The position numbers were made by a program, and so were the translations under genes. DNA of 36,670 nt from a virus, in IMG/VR virus record IMGVR_UViG_3300042905_000415, positions 1-36,670 of that record. One strand, given 5' to 3'. This document shows, piece after piece, positions 1 to 35,832 of the stretch (positions within the stretch are counted from its first letter, which is position 1; each line of letters opens with the position of its first letter). The notes beneath the pieces were generated by a model, which had not been told where the DNA came from, made no database searches, and saw only the letters and a program-made list of their open reading frames with translations.

Positions 1-712
1 GGCACCTGCTTGAGTGCCGGAGCGCACGCCCGGTGTTCTTCAGATAATAGCTGCCGAGCAAGTCGCGTGAACTAAGCCGCCCGCGAATGTGATGCAGGAT
101 CATCTGATCGCCAACGTAGACCGCAACGTGGTTCAGGCCCCGTGCGCCATCGAGTGACATCAGCAGCGCATCACCAACCTGCAGCCGCTCAACATCCACC
201 TCGACGAACCCGGCCTCGCCCCAGCAGCGATCGAACATGGGGTCTTCGTTGAACTGCTGCATCACCTCCGGCCGCTCCCAATCTGGGAGGTGCAATGCAA
301 ACTGCTCGGCGTACCAGTCACGCACCAGCGTCCAGCAATCGCTCACGCCCCACACCCACTGCCGTCCGATCAGCGGCGCCTTGAATCCATTTGGCTCGCA
401 TGTCTCCCATTGCAGCGTGCCAGGGTTGACGATGTGCCACGGCAGACCGCTGCGCTCGCAGGCCATCCTGTCGGCATCGCTTGGTGTTGCGGGTGTGCGC
501 GGATGGCTGTGCACCACACCGACCACCTCGCCTGCATCCTCAGCTTCGGCGTAGTCTTCAGGGCTGAGCACAAAGAAGTCCTGCGGCGTCTGCGCCAGGT
601 TGCGGCAGGGCCAGTACCGCTTGCGGCCTTTGACCACCACCAGCAGGCCACATGCCTCTTTCGGCGCCTCCGCCAGCGCGTGCTCAACCGCAGCCTCTTG
701 CCACTTCATCAT
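1..712 (-). CDS. Lambda gpK-like tail assembly protein (JAMM peptidase plus NlpC/P60), 3' end outside window
   Basis: The frame is open from an ATG at 712 to the left edge, giving at least 237 residues. Residues 1-100 hold a JAMM/MPN metalloprotease signature: E19, then H68-S-H70, S78 and D81, which fits the HxHx7SxxD pattern. Residues 118-230 hold an NlpC/P60 fold with the nucleophile C126 (in SDCW), H195 (in NHVAVYV) and H207/H208. This two-peptidase layout is that of lambda gpK, which acts in tail-tip assembly and may open peptidoglycan during DNA entry. The start overlaps the stop of the upstream L gene as ATGA, so the two are probably coupled; a second ATG lies one codon later. The protein is nearly complete by family length. 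All catalytic residues are visible, so both domains may be active. Confidence 0.93.
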
Positions 713-2352
713 CCGTAGAACCCTCCAACGCCCGGGAATCCCCCGAACGGTAGCTGTGCATTCTCGCCAAATCTTTTGCGGCAACTGCTTAGCCGCTTAC
801 CGCAGACATCATTCAACGCGTCAACGGTGCCGGTGATAATCCGTGGCTCGATGGCGGTGCTGTAACCAGAAGCCCATAGCGGGGTCGTGGTGCCGCCGTG
901 ATACAGCACCAGGTTTGCGTCGTTCTGCTGCGTCAGGTAGTTGGTTGAATAGCCGCTGGCAGTCCGCAGGTAGTAGACCGCTGCAACGCTGGTGAAGGTG
1001 CCCAAGGTGCCGGGGTTGACGACAGGGTCACCGTTGCGCCATGGGTTGTTGCTGCTGACGGTTACCTGCGCGTTGAAGTATTCGTTGACCCGCCACATGC
1101 CCGTTGATGCGCTGACGGTTGCCTTGGCCATGGGCTTCAGGTTGGGATCGCCGTAGTCGTCATTGATGGTTGGTGAGCCCTGCGTCCATGAATAGTTCAC
1201 CGTCCGGCCTAGTGCGGTAAAGGCGTCTTTGTAGGCCTGCGATAGCTCGACAGATGTTGCCGTGTAGCTCAGCGTCACAGTCTTGGTGCCAACGGTGAAC
1301 AGCTTCGTCGCCGTGCGCGACTGCCCTGCGTAGGTGTCAGCATTGCCGAGCACCTCGTAGAAAAATGCCCCAGCGCGGCCGGTGTTGATCGTGCTCTCAA
1401 GCCGCCAATCCATGTGCCTGACAGCCGTTGGTGTGCCCAGCAGCGCCGTGTTCGTGGCCCAGATGACCGAGCCATTGCTGCGCAGCATGACCAGGTTGCC
1501 GTCGGTCTGCATCACAAGCCGATAAGCATCAGAGCCGACCGTGTCGAGTGCCCATCGTGCATTAGCGCTTGGGTTGTCCTTGGCATAAGTGACCAGGTTT
1601 GAGTCAGCCTGCAGCGTGGTCCTGAACCAAGCATTTGCAGATGTGAGCGATTGACCCACAAACAAACTGCTGCCAGCGCTCAGGGTTGCAGTGCCAGCCG
1701 CGAAGTTGGTCGCAGGGCTTGTCGCCAGCGCGTTGTCGTTTTCGTCGAAGTAGTTGGTGCCGGTGTAGCCACACTCAGAACCGCGATACTCCCACGGGCA
1801 GGCAGTGGCCAGTGCAATGCGCTTCGGGGCACGCACACCAGCTAGGTCAAACGCAGCCGTCAGCTCGAACTCAACGAAGTCACGCGTCTCGGTGACCTTA
1901 CGATCAACGTAATAAACCTCACGCGGCATCTCAGCGGTCGGGTCTGGTGTGCCGTATGGGTTGGCGCCACCCTCAAAGTTATTGGCATCAAGGAACCGGC
2001 TCAGCGTGCGAATCCGCGTGAACTTTGCACCGGTCAGGTCGTTGCCGACTGTGTAAGCGTTGACATCCAGCAGGATCAACGAGATCGACCCAAACAGGTT
2101 GGACACCCTGACCTTGGGCCGTGGCAGTTGCCCGTTGCCGCTGTACTCAAACCCGCCCACCTCGATCGGGAAGGCCATGTAATTGTTGCCGCCCCAATAG
2201 ACGTCGCCTTTTGTCAGCGTGCCATTGACGCCATTGTGGAAGCGGTAAATTGTGTTGCTGCCATGGATCTTCTGGATCAACTCAAGCTCGAACAGCTCGA
2301 TGATCGCCGCAGGGTTTGAACTGATTAGCTCCCGGAATAGTTCGCCGCTCAT
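709..2352 (-). CDS. Lambda gpL-like minor tail protein with inserted bulb-type lectin repeats
   Basis: This 547-residue protein has the two halves of lambda gpL, a tail-tip protein that binds an Fe-S cluster through four cysteines. Here these would be C185 and C194 (ACPW and SECGY) and C517 and C524 near the C terminus, followed by the typical LPFGGFPG ending. Lambda gpL is about 230 residues, so some 300 extra residues lie between the two cysteine pairs. That insert carries three bulb-lectin QxDxNxVxY motifs: QADSNLVTY at 248-256, QTDGNLVML at 282-290 (last Tyr replaced) and QNDANLVLY at 476-484. About 180 residues of unrecognised, probably beta-rich sequence separate the second and third motifs. 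Bulb lectins bind mannose-type glycans, so a role in surface-glycan contact is inferred. The start overlaps the stop of M as ATGA. Confidence 0.9.
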
Positions 2353-2687
2353 GGTTCAAACACTTGCGTGAATGTTGCGGTGATCGTCGCCCGGTTCAGA
2401 TATGGAATCACTTTGGTCCATTGCTGGCAGATCCATTTACCGGTGCTTCCGTCTGGTGTGGTCCAATCGAACGATTCAGCGCCAGCGCGTGCCTCTAGGA
2501 ATGTCTCGATCGTGTCTGCATTGGTCTCGGTGATGTTCTGCCATGTCAGGTCCCACTGCTTTGGATCCTGGTTCAGGCCATACCGCAACCGTTGCGCGTA
2601 GCCATCACCAAACTGCACGTTACGAACCCGTGGCTGACTGGTCTTCTGTGCGCCATACGATGGCGTGATCGCTGGGAATGTAGCCAT
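2349..2687 (-). CDS. Lambda gpM-like minor tail protein
   Basis: The 112-residue product matches the phage minor tail protein M family in length and pattern: an N-terminal FPAITPSYGA segment, the VQFGDGYAQR motif at about 25-34 and the ESFDWTTPDG segment in the second half. In lambda, gpM is part of the tail-tip complex between the tape measure and gpL. The gene sits between the tape measure and L as in lambda. Its start overlaps the tape-measure stop as TAATG, and its stop overlaps the L start as ATGA. I see nothing unusual in it. Confidence 0.92.
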   Translation of the reverse strand: MATFPAITPSYGAQKTSQPRVRNVQFGDGYAQRLRYGLNQDPKQWDLTWQNITETNADTIETFLEARAGAESFDWTTPDGSTGKWICQQWTKVIPYLNRATITATFTQVFEP

Positions 2688-5029
2688 TAGGCGAGCAATC
2701 CTCCTGGGCGCTTCTGTTTGATCAATTCTGCTTGCACAGCATTGGCCACGACACGGCCAAGCTGAGCGCCTTGCCCTTGGTCGCCTTGTACTTTACTGCC
2801 AGTTGCATCGACATTAACCACCACGTTGACGCCACCGCCAAAACTGCCAGTCGGTGCAATGCCGCCGCTACGCCCAGGCATGAACAGCTCAGGGCCACGC
2901 TCACCAACCACATACGGCTGCCCGGCACGGACACTGCCGCCGTTGGCGCGGAACGATAGGCCCATTCCGGCTGTACTAAAGGGCGTTGCCGTGAAATTAC
3001 CCGACAGCATTGATGTGCTCAGCGCGCTGCCGCTAACGCCTGAATATGAAAGCCCGCCCGCTTTGGGACCAAACAGGTTGCCGATAGCGCTGATAGCTTT
3101 GTTAATGATGTAAATCTGAATTAGTTGCCGTGCGATATCAACCAGCACGCCTGATGCAATGCGCCGCAGACTGGCACTAAAACTTTCGCTGCCTTGAATC
3201 AACGCATCGAACGCTGATGTCATACCTTGACCGATGGTATTTGCAATGCCGTTTCCTAGCTCTTGCTGTAACCTTTGCCCATCGGTTAATTCAGCTTGCA
3301 AATTGACTTGCCTTTCAAGTGCAGCAATCTGGTTGACGGCACTTTCTTGCTGCAGCTCATTTAACTCGCGCTGGACCTCGCGCTGATTAGCAACCAATGC
3401 CGTGTTGCCTTCATAGATGATTGCCTCTTGCGCTCTGATGTCTTTTTCCTTGGCCAACTCCTGCGCGTAGCGATACTGAATGTCGAGCGCTTTTTGCTGG
3501 CCTTGTAAGCGCGCAACAAGTTGCTTATCGCCAGCCGTCTCAGCGGCGGCAATCTTGTCTTGGATGGTTGAGCGCAGTTGCAGAATTTGCCCCTCTGCCA
3601 GCCGGTCGCGGATGACCTGCCCAACGCGGGCCTGCTCTTTGGCGGCAGCCTCAGCCGCGCGCTCTGCTTCACGTGCGGCCTTATTGGCGCTGCCTTTGCC
3701 TTTTTTTGTATCTCTGCCGCCAAAATCACGCCCTTGCATCGAAAGACGAATTGGCACTTCCGGCCCAGCCGGTGCGTCGTACCCCTTGGCGCCTCTTTTG
3801 CGCGCGCCGACATTGGCAACTCCGCCGAGGATTGAAGCGCCGCCAAGGGTCATCACATCAAGCAACATAGCCAATCCTTTATTGCGTCCCATCTCATTGA
3901 ATCTTCCAATTAACCCTCCAAGTCCGCTATCAATGTTCGACACGCCAAGGCTTACGCCACCCATGGCGCCAGCCAAAACTTCAAAACCAGATTTCAGATC
4001 ACCAACAAATCTTGTTGCCTCTTTCAGTGCTGCTGTTATTTGCTTGATGCTTCCTGTAACAACAGGAGCCACGCTGCTAGCTACTTCAATCTTAAAATCT
4101 TCAAAAGCATTTTCCAAATCAACAATTCTTTGCTGCGGAGTGTCCAGCGACTCTGCCAATTTTTGCGCTCCTTCCGTTCGCACGCGGTCGAGCGCTCTGA
4201 CAATAACATCAGCCGTAATCTTACCTTCAGAGCCAAACTTTTTGATGCTGCCAACGTTTATGTCAAGCTCTTTTGCGATTGCCTGCGCAATCGTTGGCAT
4301 CTGTTCAAGAACAGATCTAAGTTCATCACCTTGCAACGTGCCACTGCCTAGGCCTTGCGACAGTTGCAAGAATGCAGCAGAAGCTGCATCGGCATTAACT
4401 CCACTTAGTTTGACGGCGGTATTAAAACCTTCATAGATTGCGTTGATTTCATTCAGTTGGAAACCAACAGGTCTCAATCTTGTATAAATATCTGCAACTG
4501 CATTAGCTGCTTGCGTCTGTGAAAGCCCAAACGTATCGGCTGCATTCTGAGCAGACTGCAAGACTAGGCGGTAATCGTCAAAGCCTTGGCTAACTAATTT
4601 GATCCGGCTTTGCGCTGCATTAGCAGCATTTGCTGCATCAAGAAATGATGTTGCAATGCGCTGTGCGTTGAATGCCGCCGCGCCAATGGCTAGGCCTGCT
4701 AGGGCACTAGCGGCTTCGTTAGTTGCGCGGTTTGCGCTTTGCAGCCTAGCTTCGTATTCTGCAATCTGCTTGCCAGCTTTTTGATATAGTGCGCCACCGA
4801 TCTGAACTTTGCTCTGGACTTCTCGCAATGCAGCGATCTGCTGTCGAATTGCTGCTTCTGTATTGGCTACCTTTGCGCTAAAGACAGATTGAACCTGTCC
4901 GGCAGTTGCAAAAGCAGACTTTAATTTTTGAGTCGCAGTCTCGGCTTGAGCAGATGCCCGCATGGCATCCCGCAACGCGTTGACCGCCTGCCGCGCGTCA
5001 ACCCTTAACTCAACGTTGGAGACTGCCAT
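2687..5029 (-). CDS. Tail tape measure protein
   Basis: This 780-residue protein is the longest of the tail module, as expected for the ruler that sets tail length and is ejected with the DNA. The N-terminal third is a coiled-coil-rich tape-measure domain, recognisable by the segment around GTLQGDELRSVLEQMPTIAQ with the following GKITADVIVRAL. A Gly-rich hydrophobic stretch follows, then a long Ala/Glu/Arg coiled-coil region, and a C-terminal part ending in a conserved-looking VGERGPELFMPG segment. At roughly 0.15 nm per residue the tail would be about 115-120 nm long, by the usual family relation. The start lies ten bases after the GT stop, matching the lambda G-GT-H order. The middle of the gene looks somewhat more AT-rich than its neighbours by eye. 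Confidence 0.93.
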   Translation of the reverse strand: MAVSNVELRVDARQAVNALRDAMRASAQAETATQKLKSAFATAGQVQSVFSAKVANTEAAIRQQIAALREVQSKVQIGGALYQKAGKQIAEYEARLQSANRATNEAASALAGLAIGAAAFNAQRIATSFLDAANAANAAQSRIKLVSQGFDDYRLVLQSAQNAADTFGLSQTQAANAVADIYTRLRPVGFQLNEINAIYEGFNTAVKLSGVNADAASAAFLQLSQGLGSGTLQGDELRSVLEQMPTIAQAIAKELDINVGSIKKFGSEGKITADVIVRALDRVRTEGAQKLAESLDTPQQRIVDLENAFEDFKIEVASSVAPVVTGSIKQITAALKEATRFVGDLKSGFEVLAGAMGGVSLGVSNIDSGLGGLIGRFNEMGRNKGLAMLLDVMTLGGASILGGVANVGARKRGAKGYDAPAGPEVPIRLSMQGRDFGGRDTKKGKGSANKAAREAERAAEAAAKEQARVGQVIRDRLAEGQILQLRSTIQDKIAAAETAGDKQLVARLQGQQKALDIQYRYAQELAKEKDIRAQEAIIYEGNTALVANQREVQRELNELQQESAVNQIAALERQVNLQAELTDGQRLQQELGNGIANTIGQGMTSAFDALIQGSESFSASLRRIASGVLVDIARQLIQIYIINKAISAIGNLFGPKAGGLSYSGVSGSALSTSMLSGNFTATPFSTAGMGLSFRANGGSVRAGQPYVVGERGPELFMPGRSGGIAPTGSFGGGVNVVVNVDATGSKVQGDQGQGAQLGRVVANAVQAELIKQKRPGGLLA

Positions 5030-28893: not shown

Positions 28894-29076
28894 GCGCATT
28901 GCCTCATCAGCTAACCACTTAATCTGCGATCGCTGGCTGGCTTCTTGCTCAGCCAGCAGCAGTGCATACTCCAACAACCCATTCCAGTCGCCGCGTTCAT
29001 GCAGCTCTCGCAGCACCTGCGCGTTGGCAGCACCGTGGAACTGTGCTTCTATTGTGTGAACCAACGGTCTCATCAT
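28831..29076 (-). CDS. Minus-strand helical protein embedded in the early unit
   Basis: The frame gives 81 residues: MMRPLVHTIEAQFHGAANAQ, then VLRELHERGDWNGLLEYALL and LAEQEASQRSQIKWLADEAM. The helices are well formed and charged. The DWxGLLEYALLLAEQE pattern resembles small proteins I recall from cyanobacterial phages, which supports a real gene. It fills the 181-base gap between dcd and the sigma gene, with its 3' end antisense to dcd and its start overlapping the sigma ATG by two bases. A second ATG at 29073 is equally possible. It could restrain sigma-gene expression by antisense transcription. Confidence 0.6.
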   Translation of the reverse strand: MMRPLVHTIEAQFHGAANAQVLRELHERGDWNGLLEYALLLAEQEASQRSQIKWLADEAMRSCSVEPWHLAAANELLAGGH

Positions 29077-29974
29077 GGCTGATTATGTCAAGGACTACCT
29101 GAACAGTATCGCTAAATATCCACTGTTGACACCGCAGCAAGAGATACAACTCGGCAGACGCGTGCAGCGATGGCGTGAACTAAAGCAGCTAGACCGTGCG
29201 CTAACGACCGACGAACGCCGCGAGTTGCGCAGCGGTGACCGCGCCAGGCAGCGGTTCATCCAGTCCAACCTGCAGCTTGTGGTCCATGTAGCACGCAAAT
29301 ACGACAAACGCAGCCACAAGACGCTTGAGTTTATCGACCTGATCCAAGAGGGTAATATCGGCCTGTCGCGTGCGGTTGACCTGTTCGACCCGAGCAGAGG
29401 CTACAAGTTCTCGACCTATGCCTACTGGTGGATCCGGCAGGCTATTACACGAGCGCTGGTGACATATGACCCGGTTATCAAACTGCCGGTCAGTGTCCAT
29501 GAAATGCTATTCAAGGTTGGCCGTGTCGCGCAGCAGCTAGGTCATGAGCTAGGTCGCACGCCGTCGATGACTGAAATTGCAGACCAGATCAGCGTTGGCG
29601 TTGAAGATTTATCCATGCTGCTAAAGCAGTCTTACCGCGTCACCAGCCTTGATGCGCATATTGCAGACACTGAAAGCAATGTAATTGTTGACATGATTGC
29701 TGACCCTGCATTTACAAAAGAAGAAACAAGGCAAGAAATACAGGAGATGATGGAATACTTTAACAAATACCTTGATGACATCACGCAGCAAGTATTACGC
29801 GCACGGCTTATCAGTAAACCTATTACCTGGGCAGAGCTGGAGCGGGATCTTAACATCAGCAAAAGCAAATTACAGGATCTTGAGCGCCGTGGCATCAAGC
29901 GGCTGCGTATGCTAATGAGCAACCCGCTGACAGGTACACCCCTTGGAACCGACGATAGAAAAGCACAACGATAA
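29075..29974 (+). CDS. RNA polymerase sigma-70 family factor, cyanobacterial SigA/group-2-like
   Basis: This 299-residue protein has region 1.2 (DYVKDYLNSIAKYPLLTPQQ, residues 3-31). Regions 2.1-2.4 follow (about 56-127, with FIDLIQEGNIGLSRAVDLFD and RGYKFSTYAYWWIRQAITRA nearly as in host primary sigmas). Region 3 covers 134-210 and region 4 about 230-281. Region 1.1 is absent. Region 4 is much weaker: the recognition helix reads ISKSKLQDLERRGIKRL where hosts have VTRERIRQIE. The protein should bind host core polymerase and melt standard -10 elements, with changed -35 contact. It is the last clear early gene, well placed to switch on late transcription. Confidence 0.93.
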   Translation: MADYVKDYLNSIAKYPLLTPQQEIQLGRRVQRWRELKQLDRALTTDERRELRSGDRARQRFIQSNLQLVVHVARKYDKRSHKTLEFIDLIQEGNIGLSRAVDLFDPSRGYKFSTYAYWWIRQAITRALVTYDPVIKLPVSVHEMLFKVGRVAQQLGHELGRTPSMTEIADQISVGVEDLSMLLKQSYRVTSLDAHIADTESNVIVDMIADPAFTKEETRQEIQEMMEYFNKYLDDITQQVLRARLISKPITWAELERDLNISKSKLQDLERRGIKRLRMLMSNPLTGTPLGTDDRKAQR

Positions 29975-31392: not shown

Positions 31393-32457
31393 CTAATAAG
31401 GCCAGGTGAGACGCGGCTTGCCTTGGCGTATCCCTAGATGCACGAAGCCTTTGGGTGCACCTAAGCCAGTGCTATACGGCCAATGCTTGACGCACCAGTC
31501 CTGCACGGCGTAGATGTCAGCGCCTGCAACGTAGAAATCGACCGCGCCGACGCTGGGTGCGTTGTAAAGGTGCTCTGACTGGCTAGCACCACCAACGCTG
31601 CGGTTGATTGCTGGCGGTCGATACCCGCTGGTGATCACCACCGGCCTACCACCGAACGCGCCACGCACCCTCTCAAGGAACGCGGCCAGCTCGGCGGCTG
31701 TATCAACCTGGTGCTGGTGGTCGAAGCGCCGCGCCTCCTGATCTAGAGCAAACTCACCGATGCGGATGTGCGGTGTAATGCGGGCTGAGAACGGGCTGCT
31801 AGGGCTCAGCTTGGCGGTTTGTGACTCAATACCCCATAGCCTTCCTTCCGCCTGCCTGCGGCGCAACAGACCAGCTTCTACGGTCGTTCCAGGGTTGCGG
31901 TACAGCAGCATGGCTTCAGGTACCTGCGCCCACTCCTTGGCCTTCAGCCGCTTGCTGATGGTCTCAAAGCCAGCAGCACCGTAGAAGCCCGAGCCAAGGT
32001 TGTAGGCGAAGCTAATCAGCGCGCATTGCTTGTCGCCGCTCATTGCATTCCAGTACGGCACCGTGCTACGCAGTTTGCTGGCGATGCGCTCGATCTCCAA
32101 ATCCAGCAGCCGGTTCGCGTCGATAACGCTGATCTTGTCGCCGCGTTGCACCTTGCGCCCGTCGCTGTATCTGGTGGTGCCGTAGCCAATGGTCCACGGG
32201 TCGCCGCCGCTCAGCGGATCCGGGTAAGCCGACAGGTGGCAGCCCTCGAACTCGCGGATGAGCTGCGCAGCCGCGTCATAGTTATGCAGCTTGCCGCCTT
32301 GCTGCCATGTCTTGTACCACGCTTGGTCTTTGTTAAACAATTCCGGCGCAGCCTTTAACAGCTCCGCTTCCAGTTCAACGATCGCCGCCATCTGATGCGG
32401 CGTGCCGTGTTTGTAGTACCGAAACAGGTCGGTCAGCCTGATTGATTCTTTAGCCAC
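31393..32457 (-). CDS. Two-domain endolysin: GH24 lysozyme plus M15-type peptidase
   Basis: This 354-residue protein has a helical N-terminal segment (1-60) and then a T4-type GH24 muramidase: catalytic E71 in FEGCHLSAY, D80 in YPDP and T89 in WTIGYG, with SFAYNLGSG later. From about 250 an M15-type peptidase follows (SGYRPPAINRSVGG, SEHLYNAPSVGAVDFY, and GFVHLGI), with the His, Asp and His zinc ligands in place. It would cut both glycan and stem peptide. The GTG start overlaps the holin-like gene's stop by eight bases. There is no signal peptide, so release by a holin is expected. Confidence 0.92.
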   Translation of the reverse strand: MAKESIRLTDLFRYYKHGTPHQMAAIVELEAELLKAAPELFNKDQAWYKTWQQGGKLHNYDAAAQLIREFEGCHLSAYPDPLSGGDPWTIGYGTTRYSDGRKVQRGDKISVIDANRLLDLEIERIASKLRSTVPYWNAMSGDKQCALISFAYNLGSGFYGAAGFETISKRLKAKEWAQVPEAMLLYRNPGTTVEAGLLRRRQAEGRLWGIESQTAKLSPSSPFSARITPHIRIGEFALDQEARRFDHQHQVDTAAELAAFLERVRGAFGGRPVVITSGYRPPAINRSVGGASQSEHLYNAPSVGAVDFYVAGADIYAVQDWCVKHWPYSTGLGAPKGFVHLGIRQGKPRLTWPY

Positions 32458-33411: not shown

Positions 33412-35832
33412 TTAGCGGGCGCGGGCGTAGTTGAAGGGGGATTCGGCGAAGGCGGCAAAAATATATGAACCTCCGCTTTGATTTATGAATGCGTCAGTCC
33501 CTCTGACCTTGAAGCCGTTTGAAAGAATATCAATGCTGTATGCGGTAGCGCCAGTTGATTCAGAGCCACTGCTTTGTGCTTGCAAGAAACTATCAGTCAG
33601 GTTGTAACCAGGGCGGCTCGTGTCAAACATGCCCCAGCCATTTGCTCCACCGTCATACCGTTTAGTAAGAATCCACTTGGGGCGAAAACCACAGAACACG
33701 AACGGCCCATCCGAGCTGCCGTTGCCGGTGTAGCCGCCGAAAGAAGAGTACCCGACTACTGGGGCGAAGCAGTAGGCGACATAGGTGCTACCGCTTGCAT
33801 TAACAGAACCATCGCTACCCACTCCAAAAACAGTTGATGTAGGAGTAGAGCCCCACTGACCAGAAAATGTTGCCTTGGCCCCAGTGGTGTTTAACAGTAT
33901 GTACTCATTTGATGTAAATCCTGTAAACCATATATTCCAGTTTGTTGCCGAGTCTCTGCGTTTAACAATTACCATTGCCGGGGCTGCGCCTAATCCGTGA
34001 CCAATAGTTTGCGAAGAAGATCCATTCCCCGTATAGGTGACCACTGAAAACCCCGCCGTCGCGTTGGCCCTGACACCTGTCGGCGTGATCGTGCCTGCTG
34101 TGTTGTTGGTGTCGGTTGTGGTCCCGGCGTCCCAGCACCAGCCCGCGTAGGTGGCCGAACTGGTATTGACCTGAGCTAGCGTGCCAACCGAGAACCCAGC
34201 AGAGTTGAACGCCGTGACGCCACCATCGCTTGTGACTTCTGCGTCGGTGTTGTTCGATTCCAGTCGCTTTTCAACACCACGCACGCTGTCGTACCAAGCA
34301 TGATCTGTGGCACCAGAGCGACCTTTGATCCACACCAAATCTGGATTGAAACCAAGCGTGCTGGTGGGCGTCAGCGCAGAACCGGTGCCGGTATAAAGCA
34401 CCACATCCATCACCGTGGAAGGCTTTGTGACCCCTGGCGCGGGCAGGTTTGCCGTGCAGAGCGCCTTGAAGCCGCTTACGGGATAGGCAAAAGCACGTTG
34501 CCCAGCGTTGAGCGTGTAGTTTGTATTTCCAGAGCCACCGTAAAAAACACCAAAATTAAGTGAAACCTGGGGTGTACCGCTCAGGGTAAATGTCGCAGAG
34601 TAAACACCATTTTTGTAAAAAGCACAGGAATTATTAGAATTGTCATAGGTAACGGTGATAACGTCGCCAGAAGTGTAACTGACGCCTGTGCCAGACCAGG
34701 ACCCTGAGAGCGTATTGCTCAGGTTTCCGTCACTTCTGAATGTTGCATGAAGATCACCTGTGGCATAAACCATGCTGATGAGATTGAGCCCCATCTGGTA
34801 ATAAGTGGCCGTTTTGGAACCAACAGTTATCTCCCATTGGTATTTCCCTGATGCTTGAACTGGCGGAATTGTCAGCCGGGCAGCATTTGCGTCGGCAAGC
34901 AGCGCGTCAAGATTGCCATTTGTGAGGGTTCTAGTTCCGCTCGTGGTTGCTTCGGTTGGGTTGAACGTCGCATAGTTTCCCCTCACTTCGCCGCCTAATC
35001 CACTATCTGTACCACTCGAAGTGGGAACGTCTACGAGGGAATCATTGCCTGCGCCGGATGACACCGAGAAATTGTTTGGCGTCCAGTTATTTGAGCCTGC
35101 GCTGTCTTTACCGAGCGTGGTGCTGGTGGTGCCGCTGTTGTCCGAGAACTCCAGGTGGAAACCGTTGGTGCCGTAGCTGCCGGTATACGCCTTGGGGATG
35201 AGCTGGCCGGTGGTGGCGTCGGTTTCGGTGAAGCTGCTGGGGGTCAGGGCAGAGCCATCAATCAGATAGCAGTCAGCGAGGCAGCCGTTTGTAAACCCGC
35301 TATCAATTCCGCCTCCACTATTCGCCCCAACCCCTAAAAGATGTCGCTCTGTAGCATTAACTGCTGTATCAAAGTTTTGCGAAGCGTCTGATGAAGTTGA
35401 AAAAACAGTTTGCTCAACTCCATTAACATAAACCTTAATTCTGTTTGTCGCAGTTGATTGTGTTGTGTCTACTGAAACAAGAATGTGATACCACGCAGAA
35501 AAGTCTCTAAATACTGCGGTGCTCAGTCTGCGTCCACTGTTATTACCGTCAATTCGCACGTCTAGCTGGTCATCTACGAAAACAATTCGAGACGAGCCGG
35601 AACTAATGGAAGTGCTTCCAGCTTGAAACAATATCCTTTCGCCTGACGTAGGCGATGCCCGCTTCACCCACCCCGCCCAGGTCCAGGTACGGCGGTTGCC
35701 AGCAGACCCAGGCGTGCGGCTGAGATAGGCAGAGTCGGGTGAGTTGAAACGCAGCGAGCGTGAGATACCCCCTGCAGCAGCACCTGCAGCGCTAGTGAGC
35801 AGCAGCGGATTGACGGAACCGGGGACCAGCAT
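33412..35832 (-). CDS. Large modular tail fibre / receptor-binding protein (LamG, SPRY-like, DUF7483-like)
   Basis: The 806-residue protein is rich in Ser, Thr, Gly and Asn. About 45-200 fit a LamG/concanavalin-like lectin domain (WTWAGWVKRASPTSGERILF, then YHILVSVDTTQ and NRIKVYVNGVEQ). About 325-445 look like a SPRY-type sandwich (GKYQWEITVG, later YDNSNNSCAFYKNGVYSATF). The last 330 residues carry repeated blocks (YAGWCWDAG, YVAYCFAP, YIFAAFAESPF) that I associate with DUF7483 of phage fibres. Two or three sugar-binding-like modules suggest host surface recognition. Its start overlaps the preceding gene's end. Confidence 0.82.
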   Translation of the reverse strand: MLVPGSVNPLLLTSAAGAAAGGISRSLRFNSPDSAYLSRTPGSAGNRRTWTWAGWVKRASPTSGERILFQAGSTSISSGSSRIVFVDDQLDVRIDGNNSGRRLSTAVFRDFSAWYHILVSVDTTQSTATNRIKVYVNGVEQTVFSTSSDASQNFDTAVNATERHLLGVGANSGGGIDSGFTNGCLADCYLIDGSALTPSSFTETDATTGQLIPKAYTGSYGTNGFHLEFSDNSGTTSTTLGKDSAGSNNWTPNNFSVSSGAGNDSLVDVPTSSGTDSGLGGEVRGNYATFNPTEATTSGTRTLTNGNLDALLADANAARLTIPPVQASGKYQWEITVGSKTATYYQMGLNLISMVYATGDLHATFRSDGNLSNTLSGSWSGTGVSYTSGDVITVTYDNSNNSCAFYKNGVYSATFTLSGTPQVSLNFGVFYGGSGNTNYTLNAGQRAFAYPVSGFKALCTANLPAPGVTKPSTVMDVVLYTGTGSALTPTSTLGFNPDLVWIKGRSGATDHAWYDSVRGVEKRLESNNTDAEVTSDGGVTAFNSAGFSVGTLAQVNTSSATYAGWCWDAGTTTDTNNTAGTITPTGVRANATAGFSVVTYTGNGSSSQTIGHGLGAAPAMVIVKRRDSATNWNIWFTGFTSNEYILLNTTGAKATFSGQWGSTPTSTVFGVGSDGSVNASGSTYVAYCFAPVVGYSSFGGYTGNGSSDGPFVFCGFRPKWILTKRYDGGANGWGMFDTSRPGYNLTDSFLQAQSSGSESTGATAYSIDILSNGFKVRGTDAFINQSGGSYIFAAFAESPFNYARAR

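Follow-up and report, generated by a model that had tools for sequence, protein, structure and literature searches.

A bulb-type lectin nested in the gpL-like tail hub protein of an uncultivated, probably picocyanobacterial siphophage

What is a sugar-binding fold doing inside the hub subunit of a phage tail, and why should it be interrupted by yet another domain? These questions are raised by a gene in the IMG/VR virus record IMGVR_UViG_3300042905_000415, positions 1–36,670 of which (36,670 nt) form the window analyzed here. A preliminary description, made from the letters alone, had read this gene as a gpL-like tail-tip protein with a bulb-type lectin between its two cysteine pairs, and had called such a glycan-binding module an unusual route to surface recognition. 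Our analysis leads us to favor, with somewhat more belief than doubt, a gpL hub protein that carries a composite lectin module on its Fe-S loop and thereby aids adsorption.

A gpL-type hub protein with distant cysteine pairs

The gene lies where the preliminary description placed it, on the minus strand, which had been left out (Table 1). It overlaps its gpM-like upstream and gpK-like downstream neighbors, and the gene order in the window is that of lambda H-M-L-K. In a relative, L009, the genes after K encode gpI and a central fiber J of 1,123 residues (PHROG 31, E=4.5e-204), and the genes of the two contigs together give the lambda order H-M-L-K-I-J. The Dit-like gpM of the window, with 112 residues, is unadorned, as Phage_min_tail matches along its length. 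Elsewhere in the window, an 806-residue protein (33412–35832, minus strand), matched by DUF7483 over its C-terminal 330 residues (E=1.3e-108), adjoins the lysis genes and is possibly a second tail appendage; the endolysin (31393–32457, minus strand) combines phage lysozyme and peptidase M15 domains, and the early region holds a sigma-70 factor gene (29075–29974, plus strand; regions 1.2, 2 and 3).

Table 1. Positions of the hub gene, its parts and its neighbors in the window
Feature	Position	Strand	Basis or detail
gpL-like hub protein with nested lectin insert	709..2352	-	547 aa (P0001); open reading frame and translation; ATG at 2352, stop 709-711, 547 codons
Residues 1-184, gpL N-terminal hub domain (HDI-like)	1801..2352	-	phmmer and Foldseek to 8iyk_L
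Residues 185-211, Fe-S domain, first half	1720..1800	-	C185 (1798-1800), C194 (1771-1773); aligned to insert-free relatives
Residues 212-303, bulb-lectin repeats 1 and 2	1444..1719	-	PDB bulb lectins, Foldseek; insert start from insert-free relatives
Motif 1, QADSNLVTY, residues 248-256	1585..1611	-	strict QxDxNxVxY
Motif 2, QTDGNLVML, residues 282-290	1483..1509	-	L for final Y
Residues 304-469, inner domain between repeats 2 and 3	946..1443	-	limits as in the L016/L022 swap
Residues 470-512, bulb-lectin repeat 3	817..945	-	repeat-3 profile (A5) against bulb lectins
Motif 3, QNDANLVLY, residues 476-484	901..927	-	strict QxDxNxVxY
Residues 513-547, Fe-S domain, second half	712..816	-	C517 (802-804), C524 (781-783), C-terminal LPFGGFPG; aligned to insert-free gpL
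gpM-like minor tail (distal tail) protein, upstream of L	2349..2687	-	Phage_min_tail 4.3e-28; PHROG 14
Tape measure protein, gpH position	2687..5029	-	TMP_3 1.5e-37
gpK-like protein (JAB and NlpC/P60), cut by the window end	2..784	-	Prok-JAB 7.5e-18, NLPC_P60 3.4e-14, PHROG 30 4.8e-94

The proposed gpL membership is well supported. The 547-residue protein matches Pfam Phage_tail_L (PF05100) at E=1.9e-53 (181.3 bits against a curated cut-off of 25) and the PHROG 18 minor tail protein at E=2.9e-80. Its N-terminal hub domain finds the lambda gpL chain 8iyk_L (1.6e-22) and the F2-pyocin hub protein BHP, 25vf (5.2e-30), with phmmer, and the model of this domain finds 8iyk_L with Foldseek (7.4e-12). 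The gene also occupies the position between gpM and gpK that a gpL gene has in a lambda-type tail operon. Judged by these matches, by the gene order and by the cysteine spacing, the window protein is a lambda gpL-type hub protein.

Only four residues of the protein are cysteines: C185, C194, C517 and C524. Lambda gpL (PDB 8iyk) likewise consists of an N-terminal hub and an Fe-S domain, but lacks an insert, and its Fe-S ligands are C173, C182, C205 and C212 (PMC10721106). The spacing within the pairs, 9 and 7 residues, is the same in both proteins, whereas the distance between the pairs is 323 residues in the window protein, close to the 320 or so first noted, and 23 in lambda gpL. In a pattern-based sample of gpL proteins from viral contigs, recognized through the CGKRxxSC motif, the distance was 22 or 23 in 56 of the 63 with both pairs recognized, among the matches listed. 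C185 and C194 are invariant and align with the corresponding cysteines of insert-free relatives. When the full protein was modeled with AlphaFold from 16 sequences, the insert was predicted well, while the hub core and the Fe-S region were of low confidence, with pLDDT values below 50 in residues 167–207 and 511–547. By homology to lambda, we infer that the four cysteines meet around an Fe-S cluster.

A bulb-type lectin split by an inner domain

An alignment with the insert-free relatives L029, L033, L035, L036 and L041, which are 58–64% identical, revealed a single clean insertion at residues ~212–513. Its approximately 300 residues comprise two bulb-lectin repeats, an inner domain of ~166 residues and a third lectin repeat, and together with the bulb-lectin matches described below it bears out the lectin first proposed between the cysteine pairs. 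Three QxDxNxVxY motifs had been reported. All three repeats are present, although only motifs 1 and 3 are strict, as motif 2 ends in L; this L is a natural variant, for the near-identical phages L003 and L007 have Y there. Motifs 2 and 3 are separated by 186 residues, in agreement with the approximate 180 given beforehand. Two QxDxNxV motifs occurred in none of 100,000 shuffles of the protein, and chance is therefore not their origin.

The lectin assignment rests on several comparisons. Residues 223–302 match solved bulb lectins at E=6.9e-12, and repeats 1 and 2 (residues 212–303) match PDB 4oit at E=6.6e-15; the Foldseek superposition of their model on many bulb lectins of the snowdrop type gave rmsd values of 1.4–2.3 Å over ~83 residues or columns. 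The profile of repeat 3 (A5) matches bulb lectins on its own, at up to 8.5e-16. Repeats 1 and 2 alone reach residues 5–77 of the 109-residue snowdrop lectin. When the inner domain was removed and the three repeats were joined, the matches extended over residues 5–108 of 109 in 1jpc (E=1.5e-10) and 4–104 of 113 in 4oit (E=1.6e-14). The joined repeats thus cover whole bulb lectins, which indicates one lectin domain split between repeats 2 and 3, and these alignments show repeat 3 as the supplier of the missing third. The initial picture of a domain within a domain within a domain was accurate: the inner domain interrupts the lectin between its second and third repeats. The Pfam B_lectin model scored the intact protein below its cut-off (18.0 against 32.4 bits).

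The best solved relatives by sequence, with QxDxNxVxY repeats like those of the window protein, are LlpA, putidacin L1, pyocins L1 and L2, GNA and the Mycobacterium smegmatis lectin 4oit. LlpA and pyocin L1 bind D-rhamnose of lipopolysaccharide through these motifs (PMC6240691), and binding of mannose- or rhamnose-type sugars is predicted for the window lectin. The lectin-like bacteriocins and the plant bulb lectins are free proteins or tandem lectin domains, whereas the window lectin is single, embedded in a virion hub protein and split between repeats 2 and 3.

The inner domain (residues 304–469) found no match in Pfam, and its relatives gave only scattered weak ones. AlphaFold2 with 35 relatives predicted a mixed alpha/beta structure at good confidence (pLDDT 88.3, pTM 0.87). 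A Foldseek search of this model against the PDB retrieved no fold match, the best hit having E 0.66 and probability 0.04 and all hits being at chance level. Based on this one predicted model and one structure library, the inner domain may be a new fold. A weak PDB sequence match to the flagellin hook IN (6xi1; E=4e-4) was considered and set aside, as the fold search did not support it.

Distribution, exchange and decay of the insert

The preliminary description had suggested searching for homologous inserts in other phage L proteins, and such inserts are common. Scans of IMG/VR yielded 111 stretches encoding relatives of the insert and 144 encoding relatives of the inner domain, two sets that overlap, and the nested insert was found in more than 100 viral contigs from many metagenomes. 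Every copy with a full reading frame that was read lies inside a gpL gene, at the same site between the cysteine pairs, and none of the copies read places the inner domain outside gpL. A tblastn search with the insert covered 50,697 phage records (INPHARED) and gave nothing at E<=0.1. In a scan of bacterial genomes, nearly all matches span lectin repeats 1 and 2 only, L127 spanning further; we take the repeat 1–2 matches as ordinary bacterial lectins. Among the papers searched, none joins a bulb-type lectin with a phage tail, and none is relevant for B_lectin.

In a tree of the gpL core, from which the insert was left out, all 20 sampled lectin-bearing representatives fell into one group (SH-aLRT 98) amid insert-free gpL. 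The tree was built by a quick method with midpoint rooting and without bootstrap, and it scores L287, L370 and L387 as insert-bearing by length alone, their inserts being unrelated to the lectin. The simplest reading of this single group is one gain, followed by vertical retention. Six of the seven near-identical relatives carry changes, and in every segment the synonymous codon changes far exceed the non-synonymous ones, indicating that the whole reading frame, lectin repeats included, is under purifying selection. The possibility that an assembly chimera or sequencing artifact fused a tail gene with an unrelated lectin gene has nothing in its favor besides the unusual architecture, and the recurrence of that architecture in all these contigs, the selection across the frame and the tree-consistent distribution speak against it; we reject it as having virtually no chance of being correct.

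The inner domain has been precisely replaced in at least one pair of relatives. L016 and L022 have no mismatch over the 2.1 kb before and the 935 bp after it, while residues 306–470 (~304–469 in the window protein) are exchanged for a homolog with a DNA identity of 27–63% per 60-base interval, except in the last interval, at the boundary. The L022 version is also found in L023, from another metagenome, which argues against a chimera. These comparisons show that the inner domain is exchanged between phages like a cassette. With a mean pairwise identity of 0.36 it is the most divergent segment, against 0.42–0.43 for the lectin and 0.67 for the hub core. Between the window protein and L053–L065 the values are 0.71–0.79 for the inner domain and 0.46–0.61 for the lectin, which suggests that the two have partly separate histories.

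The sugar sites themselves are not uniformly kept. Site 1 is lost in L066, L084 and L099, site 3 in the L074 group, and all three sites in L026, L108 and L109, and in each case the insert persists. These lineages have either changed their sugar specificity or turned the prism into a scaffold. The decay implies that sugar binding through these sites is not essential across the family, and mainly for this reason our confidence in the sugar-binding step is limited. One could go further and regard the lectin fold as a rigid scaffold with sugar sites that are vestigial in many lineages, the inner domain being the real binder of a receptor or surface. The persistence of the insert through these losses is what such a scaffold would allow, and the divergence and precise exchange of the inner domain fit a unit of specificity. 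However, the window's own subclade has kept the three motifs completely or almost so (three sites, or four of five key residues), the lectin repeats are under purifying selection, and in the comparison with L053–L065 it is the lectin that has diverged more, contrary to what one would expect if the inner domain set the specificity. We therefore regard the scaffold as rather unlikely, if still deserving serious weight, and retain a sugar-binding lectin as our preferred reading for the window protein.

The host can be approached through other genes. Among cultured phages, those with the capsid and terminase closest to the window's are picocyanobacterial siphophages: the two proteins are 85.8% and 77.8% identical to those of KBS-S-2A, 81.7% and 80.7% to those of S-H1, and 67.9% and 73.5% to those of MED4-184 and MED4-117, the next records being at ~41–44%. 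Such relatives make a Synechococcus- or Cyanobium-like host likely. The gpL proteins of the cultured phages S-H1 and KBS-S-2A carry no insert.

Possible roles of the insert at the tail tip

The description of the insert as an unusual route to surface recognition needs tempering, since tail hubs whose Fe-S domain encloses a sugar-binding domain are already known. The RcGTA hub Rcc01696 (g13) and the roseophage R4C hub vBDshSR4C_014, both gpL-like, have a four-cysteine Fe-S, or "ion-binding", domain that is split in sequence, and each holds an oligosaccharide-binding domain (residues 168–249 and 162–243) between the two halves (PMC7296036, PMC10276861). By the published domain limits, these hubs resemble the window protein in having an extra domain between the Fe-S halves. 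Their inserted domain, of ~82 residues, was named from its similarity to the insertion domain of phage LKA1 gp49, whereas the window insert is a bulb-type lectin, of ~300 residues in all, interrupted by another domain. What sets the present case apart is its bulb-lectin fold, its second level of nesting and an inner domain that is exchangeable and matches no known fold. A further parallel is the evolved Dit of Gram-positive siphophages, where, as in PMC10688798, adsorption is aided by a carbohydrate-binding module set into a conserved protein of the tail tip; the window insert lies in the gpL Fe-S hub subunit instead of Dit.

The site is also used by other phages. In four other types of gpL, the cysteine pairs are separated by unrelated inserts, the distance between the pairs being ~160 residues in L287 and L370, ~184 in L387, ~107 in L360 and ~92 in L308, whose insert weakly resembles an endosialidase beta-barrel domain (E=1e-4, below the cut-off). 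Insertion into the loop that spans the Fe-S cluster thus seems to have happened repeatedly. These inserts bear on the possibility that the window insert is purely structural, stabilizing the tip or contacting gpJ, gpM or accessory proteins without touching the host. In tips of the lambda type, the inserted FNIII domains of gpJ make up part of the wall (PMC10721106), and the whole clade retains the insert even where sugar sites are lost, both of which would suit such a role. Conversely, a structural part would hardly be expected to diverge fast and be swapped as a cassette next to a conserved hub core, or to have unrelated counterparts at the same site in other phages, one of them weakly endosialidase-like; and the insert-free relatives imply that a tip of this type does not need it. 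We consider a purely structural insert improbable.

Adsorption is the likeliest role of the insert. In the explanation that we prefer, the protein would serve as the gpL hub subunit in a siphophage with a lambda-type tail tip, probably in three copies per virion, and the short loop joining its cysteine pairs would have been replaced by a composite surface module of ~300 residues: a bulb-type (beta-prism II) lectin bearing the ~166-residue domain in the loop between repeats 2 and 3. The hub core would fold as in lambda, and the Fe-S cluster would hold both ends of the insert like a staple. The Fe-S domain of lambda gpL is found on the outer surface of the tip (PMC10721106), and work on phage LSH1 from 2026 describes the same hub region as a focus of hypervariability, presumably near the cell wall (PMC13243795). 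The lectin would be displayed on the exterior of the tip, where it could bind, with low affinity, sugars of the mannose or rhamnose type on the host envelope, and the inner domain borne by it, traded between phages by recombination, may tune the surface that is bound. Such contacts would help the tip to dock before the central fiber gpJ commits the phage. The full-length J downstream in L009 upholds the earlier view that the lectin is distinct from the fibers, and the architecture of the hub protein suggests a second host grip besides the central fiber.

A broader proposal would make the gpL Fe-S clamp a general hot spot for interchangeable surface modules, with the inner domain, as a new fold, serving as a host-range cassette, and with binding by the insert coupled through the Fe-S staple to the opening of the tip; taken as a whole, we find this proposal doubtful. 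The preferred explanation points to a second, non-fiber adhesin in siphophages that probably infect picocyanobacteria. The functions of the Fe-S cluster in gpL-type tips "remain to be characterized" (PMC10721106), and the insert-bearing family and its close insert-free relatives provide matched pairs for asking whether the cluster is a mechanical staple for displayed domains.

Several other gpL proteins in our collection have additions of their own. At the site between the pairs, the insert of L360 (5682–6665) has HFxxYGxxEGR/YYLxTYPD repeats, as in bacterial surface proteins, and that of L387 is helical and alanine-rich. The N-terminal hub domain carries an insert of ~160 residues with the look of a carbohydrate-binding module in L308 (3045–4514) and L281, and a different, cupredoxin-like one (HPLRI...YYCSTHGNSM) in L042 (2995–3984; marine virus AG-345-A17), a gpL without the Fe-S cysteine pairs. 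In L279, L316, L331 and L334, 200–300 residues are inserted after the last cysteine (RFG) and before the C-terminal LPFGxFPG, and this region is an apparent second insertion site. Finally, the gpL proteins of L296, L316, L334 and L346 are extended at the N-terminus by ~60 residues (WxAsxaYxxGDxV...EPxWP...DGxVxW) that look, by eye, like modules of the chitin-binding type.
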